Assembly (NCBI GenBank): GCA_016870475.1 | Contig: VGBO01000026.1 | Location: 1 to 32,540 of the forward strand | Length of the DNA: 32,540 nt | Direction of reading: 5' to 3' | DNA from: Actinomycetota bacterium | GTDB taxonomy: Bacteria > Actinomycetota > Acidimicrobiia > Acidimicrobiales > CAIXPF01 | Shown: positions 9,109 through 11,176 of the stretch, piece by piece | How positions within the stretch are numbered: position 1 is the first letter of the stretch | Layout: every line of letters starts with the position of its first letter | Notes under the pieces: generated by a model | What the model was told of the DNA's origin: nothing | What the model saw: the letters and a program-made list of their open reading frames with translations, nothing else | Databases searched by the model: none | Made by a program: the position numbers and the translations under genes

Positions 9109-9125
9109 CCCCGCAGCGGGTCAGT
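9104..9125. terminator. Bidirectional terminator-like hairpin at PHP/mtnP junction
   Basis: ACTGACCC(9104-9111)-cgcagc-GGGTCAGT(9118-9125), perfect 8-bp arms; both stop codons lie in the arms. Confidence 0.55.
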
Positions 9126-9876
9126 CGAGCATCTCGATCGCCCGGAACAGGGCGCCGCGCACCGAGGCGATGTTCTGGCGGAAGAAGGCGAACACCTGCT
9201 CCTGGGTGACCGGTTCGACCGCCGGGTCGTCCTCGAGGCCGGCGTCGTAGTCGGTGACGAGCGCGACGCTCGCATAGGGGATGCCGGCCTCGACCGCGAG
9301 CGCGGCCTCGGGATAGTTCGTCATGTTCACGACCGACCAGCCCATCTGGCTGAACCACCGGGACTCGGCCGTCGTGGAGAACCGGGGGCCGCTGATCACC
9401 ACGACCGTCCCGGTCGGGTGGGTGACGACGTCCTGCTCGCGGCACGCCTGCACGAGGATCGACCGGAGTCGCTGGTCGTAGGGGTGGGCCATGGAGGTGT
9501 GCTGCGGTCCGGGGCCGTCGAAGAACGTGTCGGCCCGACCGGAGGTGCGGTCGACGAACTGGTCGATCACCACGAAGTGGCCGGGGGCGATCTCCGGCCG
9601 GAGCGACCCGGCGGAGCAGGGTCCGAACAGTGCCCGGACGCCGGCCTGCTGCATCGCCCACACGTTCGCCCGGAAGTTCACGCGGTGTGCGGGGAACTCG
9701 TGGTGACGGCCGTGGCGGGCGAGGAACACGACGGTCCGGCCGCCGATGCTGCCGTAGTGCAGCGGTGCGGACGGCGCGCCGTAGGGGGTCTCGACGGTGA
9801 CCTCGGTGACGTCGTCGAGGAACTCGTAGAGCCCCGACCCGCCGAGGACGCCGACGTCTGCGGGCGGGACCGCCAC
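9121..9876 (-). CDS. mtnP: S-methyl-5'-thioadenosine phosphorylase family protein
   Basis: VGVLGGSGLYEFLDDVTEV, VVFLARHGRHHEFPAHRVNFRANVWAM, GPCSAGSLRPEIAPGHFVVIDQFVDRT, GPRFSTTAESRWFSQMGWSVVNMTNYPEAALA. Confidence 0.92.
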   Translation of the reverse strand: MAVPPADVGVLGGSGLYEFLDDVTEVTVETPYGAPSAPLHYGSIGGRTVVFLARHGRHHEFPAHRVNFRANVWAMQQAGVRALFGPCSAGSLRPEIAPGHFVVIDQFVDRTSGRADTFFDGPGPQHTSMAHPYDQRLRSILVQACREQDVVTHPTGTVVVISGPRFSTTAESRWFSQMGWSVVNMTNYPEAALAVEAGIPYASVALVTDYDAGLEDDPAVEPVTQEQVFAFFRQNIASVRGALFRAIEMLD

Positions 9877-9877
9877 C

Positions 9878-10213
9878 TCAGTCGCCGCCAGAGGTGGATC
9901 CCGTCGCGGGCGTGGAGGAGGTCGAACCCGACGACGTTCCCTCCGACGACGACGACGTCGTCGAGGACGTGCTCGACGACGAGGTGTCCGACGAGGAGGT
10001 GTCCGAGGTCGTCGTGCGGCTGGCGGACGACGAGGACTTGCTGTCGGTCTTGTAGAAGCCGGAGCCCCTGAAGGTCACGCCGACGGGCGTGAAGACCTTC
10101 TTGACCGGCGCGGCCTTCTCGCAGTTGCAGACGGTCCGAGGGGGATCGGAGAACGAAGCCTGCTCCTCGAACTGCTTGTCGCACTCGAGACAGCGGTACA
10201 CGTACGTGGGCAT
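9878..10213 (-). CDS. FmdB-family zinc-ribbon protein with Ser/Thr-rich tail
   Basis: MPTYVYRCLECDKQFEEQASFSDPPRTVCNCEKAAPVKKVFTPVGVTFRGSGFYKTDS followed by ~50 aa of low-complexity S/T. mtnP starts 1 nt after its stop. Confidence 0.9.
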   Translation of the reverse strand: MPTYVYRCLECDKQFEEQASFSDPPRTVCNCEKAAPVKKVFTPVGVTFRGSGFYKTDSKSSSSASRTTTSDTSSSDTSSSSTSSTTSSSSEGTSSGSTSSTPATGSTSGGD

Positions 10214-10235
10214 CGGGGCGGCGCTCCTCGCGCAG

Positions 10236-10262
10236 TTAGCACTCGACAGCGGAGAGTGCCAG
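10236..10262. promoter_or_regulatory. CIRCE element (HrcA operator) upstream of fmdB-mtnP
   Basis: Plus: TTAGCACTC-gacagcgga-GAGTGCCAG. Minus (fmdB sense): CTGGCACTC-N9-GAGTGCTAA. The right arm is a perfect match to CIRCE consensus TTAGCACTC-N9-GAGTGCTAA. 22 nt separate it from the fmdB ATG; TACGCT -10-like hexamer abuts it. Confidence 0.85.
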
Positions 10263-10366
10263 CGTACCGCGGCGGCGGCGGGCGACCGAACTCGCCGGGT
10301 GTGACACCGACCCGGACGGGGCACGACCTCGCCACCGTCCCCGGAGCTGCCCGGCCGATTCCCGTC

Positions 10367-11176
10367 ATGCCCTGGTCGTCGCCCGTCGCCTCGGCTGCGG
10401 CCCGGACCGTCTCCGCGGCGGCGGCTGTCAACGGCGACGCCGGACCGGGACGATCGGTCCGCAAGGCGGTGATCCCCGCTGCGGGGCTCGGCACGCGGTT
10501 CCTGCCCGCCACGAAGGCGATCCCGAAGGAGATGCTGCCCCTCGTCGACGCTCCGGCGATCCAGTACGTGGTCGAGGAGGCGGTTGCCGCGGGGATCACC
10601 GACGTGCTGCTCGTGACGAGCCCGCACAAGAAGGCCATCGAGGATCACTTCGACCGCTCCTTCGAGCTCGAGGCCCGGCTCGCCGAGCGTGGTCGACACG
10701 ACGACGTCGCCGAGTTGCGTCGCCTCGCCGGGCTCGCCCGGATCCACACACTCCGCCAGGGGGAGCCGCTCGGGCTCGGCCACGCCGTGCACGTCGCCCG
10801 CCACGACGTCCTGCCCCTCGTCGGTCTCGTCGAGAAACCCGCACCCGACCAGGCGCCGTCCGACCTCGCGGTGATCGGTCGCTACGTGTTCACGCCGGCC
10901 GTCTTCGGGCACCTCGACGGGCTCGGGCAGGGCGCGGGAGGAGAGATCCAGCTGACCGACGCCATGGACCGCCTCGCCCGCGCCGACGGTCTCGACGGCA
11001 TCCGCTGCACCGGCGGTCGGTACGACCTCGGCGCGAAGCTCGACCACCTCCGTGCCACCGTCGACCTCGCGCTGCGTCGAGCCGACCTCGGCCCGGCCTT
11101 CGCCCGGTACCTCGCGGAGGTCGGCGGCGGCGGTCCCGACGGGTCGGGGAGCGGAGGGCCGCCGCTAGCGTCGTGA
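10367..11176 (+). CDS. galU: UTP-glucose-1-phosphate uridylyltransferase (GalU) homologue with internal deletion
   Basis: RKAVIPAAGLGTRFLPATKAIPKEMLPLVDAPAIQYVVEEAVAAGITDVLLVTS, QGEPLGLGHAV, VGLVEKPAPDQAPSDLAVIGRYVFTPAVF, GGEIQLTDAMDRLA. The central FAVLLPDD segment is absent. Exact start uncertain. Confidence 0.85.
   Translation: MPWSSPVASAAARTVSAAAAVNGDAGPGRSVRKAVIPAAGLGTRFLPATKAIPKEMLPLVDAPAIQYVVEEAVAAGITDVLLVTSPHKKAIEDHFDRSFELEARLAERGRHDDVAELRRLAGLARIHTLRQGEPLGLGHAVHVARHDVLPLVGLVEKPAPDQAPSDLAVIGRYVFTPAVFGHLDGLGQGAGGEIQLTDAMDRLARADGLDGIRCTGGRYDLGAKLDHLRATVDLALRRADLGPAFARYLAEVGGGGPDGSGSGGPPLAS

Follow-up and report, generated by a model that had tools for sequence, protein, structure and literature searches.

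The inverted repeat upstream of fmdB in this stretch of DNA is a genuine CIRCE operator, and it is very likely that HrcA represses a joint fmdB-mtnP transcript from it, with fmdB encoding a chaperone of the Ruc type and mtnP coming under the same control by co-transcription. The arrangement is conserved and essentially expected, and its biology is already known from Mycobacterium tuberculosis. The following features of the window (the whole stretch of DNA analysed, 32,540 nucleotides) carry the argument:

9121 to 9876, minus strand: mtnP, S-methyl-5'-thioadenosine phosphorylase, 251 codons (NF005876, TIGR01694)
9878 to 10213, minus strand: fmdB, most likely a ruc-type gene, 111 aa (TIGR02605 and PF09723 above cut-off)
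10236 to 10262, minus strand: CIRCE operator, 16/18 to consensus, core 12/12, 9-nt spacer
10261 to 10266, minus strand: TACGCT, a -10-like hexamer overlapping the operator at its 5' end (direct reading)
10256 to 11176, plus strand: divergent galU (TIGR01099 match 68-185)

CIRCE is a symmetric inverted repeat, and its classical sites precede groESL and hrcA-dnaK. At positions 10236-10262 of the window it was read directly as TTAGCACTC-N9-GAGTGCCAG; on the minus strand (10262-10236, the sense of fmdB) it reads CTGGCACTC-TCCGCTGTC-GAGTGCTAA. Scoring was performed against the consensus TTAGCACTC-N9-GAGTGCTAA, and the two mismatches to it both lie in the arm farther from fmdB. A single copy of the core GCACTC-N9-GAGTGC is present in the window, and none appeared in 100 dinucleotide shuffles. 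Direct reading and this shuffle control bear out the dyad that the first-pass annotation had placed 22 nt before the ATG of fmdB (10213-10211). The genome (98.7% complete) was scanned for further copies, a check which the same annotation had proposed, allowing up to three mismatches and using the reversed pattern as control. Exactly three sites were found (control: none), located before groES-groEL (L001), a second groEL (L002) and fmdB; the two chaperonin sites are perfect, in contrast to the two mismatches at fmdB. The repressor that such a reading presupposes is encoded in the genome (PF01628, E 3.2e-45; TIGR00331, 272.8 bits versus a cut-off of 197.2), as hrcA is in 108 of 119 sampled genomes of the class. 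Here the gene order is hrcA then dnaJ, and the whole-genome scan at up to three mismatches found no CIRCE at this pair.

The fmdB protein consists of a zinc ribbon (C8, C11, C29, C31) and a Ser/Thr-rich tail, as read from the translation, and its earlier identification as an FmdB-type zinc-ribbon protein holds in view of the TIGR02605 match. For M. tuberculosis, direct repression by HrcA has been reported for ruc (Rv0991c) and three Hsp60/Hsp10 genes, and Ruc becomes far more abundant at 45 degrees as well as when hrcA is mutated (PMC7448276). Ruc combines an N-terminal four-cysteine zinc ribbon with a disordered tail and acts as a redox-regulated chaperone; the oxidised protein binds unfolded proteins, which are passed on to the Hsp70 system (PMC7448276). 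The first-pass view that the operator controls fmdB "rather than a chaperone gene" is therefore not tenable, since Rv0991c/Ruc is itself an HrcA-repressed, heat-induced chaperone, and with it falls the idea of a CIRCE without a chaperone target (PMC7448276). The fmdB of the window is most likely a ruc orthologue, an assignment that is well supported and is based on synteny, regulon and domain content rather than on a phylogeny. As fmdB thus most likely encodes a Ruc-type chaperone, the operator would control a chaperone gene after all; a Ruc-like chaperone activity of the window protein is suggested by analogy. Two Mycobacterium-group genomes (L090, L111) carry galU-moeA beside CIRCE-fmdB, as does the window. 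No literature joining HrcA and FmdB by name was found; the relevant paper speaks of Rv0991c/Ruc.

The second gene of the predicted transcript starts with a GTG (9876) only 1 nt past the stop of fmdB (10213-9878), just as first annotated, and its product matches the MTA phosphorylase profiles above their cut-offs (NF005876, 320.3 bits versus 306; TIGR01694, 287 versus 274.85). Most likely mtnP would simply be carried along on the fmdB transcript. In the class sample mtnP lies closely downstream of ruc at 12 of 28 CIRCE-bearing genes versus 10 of 51 CIRCE-less ones. Because the adjacency also exists without CIRCE, any heat control of mtnP would come by co-transcription, and HrcA control would follow where ruc and mtnP share a transcript. 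The same counts, which make the linkage independent of HrcA, also fit a scenario in which HrcA controls fmdB only and mtnP is expressed mainly from its own promoter, outside the heat-shock response. We regard this scenario as possible but rather unlikely: the 1-nt gap, together with mtnP starts within a few nt of the ruc stop in the relatives G227, G340 and G380, suggests a single transcript with coupled translation. Co-transcription of mtnP with fmdB, as the gene arrangement suggests, is accordingly the reading that we prefer. A literature search for a tie of MTA phosphorylase to both heat shock and HrcA found none.

At the promoter, TACGCT (10266-10261, minus strand) is present as the first-pass annotation had described, but it does not lie immediately before the dyad; it overlaps the dyad's first two bases. 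TANNNT clusters at the dyad's 5' edge in the aligned CIRCE-fmdB regions (at least 118 in the contig scan described below). Among the 118 aligned matches listed, it stands at offset -5 in 73 and at offset -4, the register of TACGCT in the window, in 11. Within the family of the window, five of six genomes show TACGCT or TAGGCT at the operator edge. No -35 element could be established for the fmdB promoter from the aligned CIRCE-fmdB regions. HrcA sitting on the dyad would cover the -10/start region of this promoter and would keep the fmdB-mtnP transcript silent until the repressor is inactivated by heat or by folding stress; HrcA binding and heat induction at this operator are predictions from sequence. 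With hrcA present, the dyad conserved before orthologous genes and the -10-like overlap conserved as well, the earlier proposal that the fmdB promoter carries a CIRCE/HrcA operator is supported.

CIRCE is symmetric and the divergent galU adjoins it, so the palindrome might act on galU, either instead of fmdB or together with it. This is very improbable. Across the class, GalU homology starts some 0.1 to 0.9 kb from fmdB, whereas CIRCE keeps a short distance to the fmdB start in most loci and the conserved -10-like element is directed at fmdB. The varying distance of galU, set against a CIRCE that stays near fmdB, disfavours galU as the operator's target, and fmdB remains the gene to which we assign it. 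The divergent galU-moeA neighbourhood is common to many ruc loci. In the window, the listed GTG start of galU falls inside the operator, and the GalU homology begins near residue 68 of the listed frame. Independent of the operator, we observed that the galU product of the window is without about 60 internal residues, including an LLPDD-containing stretch, when compared with its nearest relatives (L122, L127), with the frame kept; the product may have lost its function, or the gap may stem from an assembly error.

The conservation counts that follow are uncorrected for relatedness. CIRCE precedes fmdB in all six genomes of the family of the window, and in their alignment (n=6) the arms of the dyad are clearly set off from flanks of low conservation. 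Within the order, the site was recovered in 69 of 114 scored genomes (out of 140 with a match, the omitted ones being mostly weaker matches) versus 0 of 2280 shuffled upstream regions at the threshold; about 40% of the scored genomes are without a recognisable CIRCE before fmdB. Upstream scores in the class sample are bimodal: 29 of 82 Ruc-type genes reach at least 14/18 and the remainder 12 or less, a fraction that is slightly too low because the split between Ruc-type genes and short paralogues was made by motif and two of the 82 (L231, L235) look short-type. None of the 17 short FmdB paralogues in the class sample reaches 14/18, the one of the genome itself included. This second FmdB (L223, contig C21, 19786-19920) is of the QRPM type, measures 77 aa and is without CIRCE. 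The exact-core pattern was present in 19 of 296 class genomes, the control pattern in none. Finally, a contig scan of one genome per species for CIRCE 10-40 nt before a ATGCCNACNTA start yielded at least 118 stretches, a non-random sample. The matches listed belong mostly to Actinomycetota (Acidimicrobiia, Nocardioides, Dietzia, Nesterenkonia, Mycobacterium group) and also include Riflebacteria, Ignavibacteriales, Armatimonadota and others. Nearly all of them start FmdB proteins, the exceptions being three without a recognisable FmdB start (L019, L067, L107) and two without a tblastn match (L017, L058). Four public MAG records (L006, L035, L072, L122) are titled Bifidobacterium breve or Ferrithrix thermotolerans; their proteins resemble other Acidimicrobiia, and the titles are probably wrong.

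Despite its two mismatches to the consensus, the dyad could by this evidence (six of six in the family, 69 of 114 in the order, nothing in 2280 upstream or 100 window shuffles) hardly be a functionless chance palindrome, an explanation that we reject with near certainty. The conservation before orthologous fmdB genes that the first-pass annotation had suggested examining was thus found in family and order alike, and HrcA regulation of fmdB is strongly supported by it.

The zinc ribbon itself varies. In the window (10058-10213) it follows the pattern C8-x2-C11-N17-C29-x1-C31, that is, with a CxC second knuckle in contrast to the CxxC-N17-CxxC of Ruc. The CxxC-N17-CxC form is found in four of the six family members (G000, G227, G340, G360); in the genome of the window and the latter three, the second knuckle reads CNC or CIC. 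A sister family (f2) and Ilumatobacteraceae-like MAGs possess a Ruc orthologue that is without the ribbon cysteines (for example in L105, L130 and L243); its serine-rich tail is retained, as is galU next to the gene. One such protein scores 17.2 bits with the Pfam ribbon model versus a cut-off of 34.4. Cysteine-free Ruc, with the sequence MPTYVYKFVETGET, was seen in loci that still have a CIRCE (L105, L130, L243, L006, L035, L072, L076, L078, L042, L025 and similar ones); in the order sample, one of five cysteine-free Ruc genes has a CIRCE. A wider scenario strikes us as improbable: in this order, selection would have tied MTA phosphorolysis, as a stress function, to the HrcA control of ruc, and the loss of all ribbon cysteines in the sister family, some members of which keep the operator, would imply a Ruc chaperone that acts independently of redox state.

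Our results extend the compact HrcA regulon known from M. tuberculosis, made up of the chaperonins and Ruc, to Acidimicrobiia as well as to many further Actinomycetota. They also support reading Ruc-type FmdB genes as heat-shock chaperone genes, and a conserved CIRCE helps to distinguish these from the short paralogue of FmdB. Whether Ruc depends on its redox switch could be put to a natural test with the orthologues that are free of cysteines.

Compared with the classical CIRCE sites of groESL and hrcA-dnaK, the dyad described here has the same inverted repeat and 9-nt spacer but differs in standing before fmdB/ruc. In M. tuberculosis an HrcA site likewise lies upstream of a small zinc-ribbon gene, and the remaining HrcA targets there, groES and two groEL genes, are mirrored by the three-site set found here. 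In contrast, the downstream gene is Rv0990c (Hsp22.5) in M. tuberculosis and mtnP in the window, and the last ribbon cysteine is C32 in M. tuberculosis Ruc (positions taken from primer names, PMC7448276) versus C31 here. For M. tuberculosis ruc an overlap with SigH has also been reported (PMC7448276).
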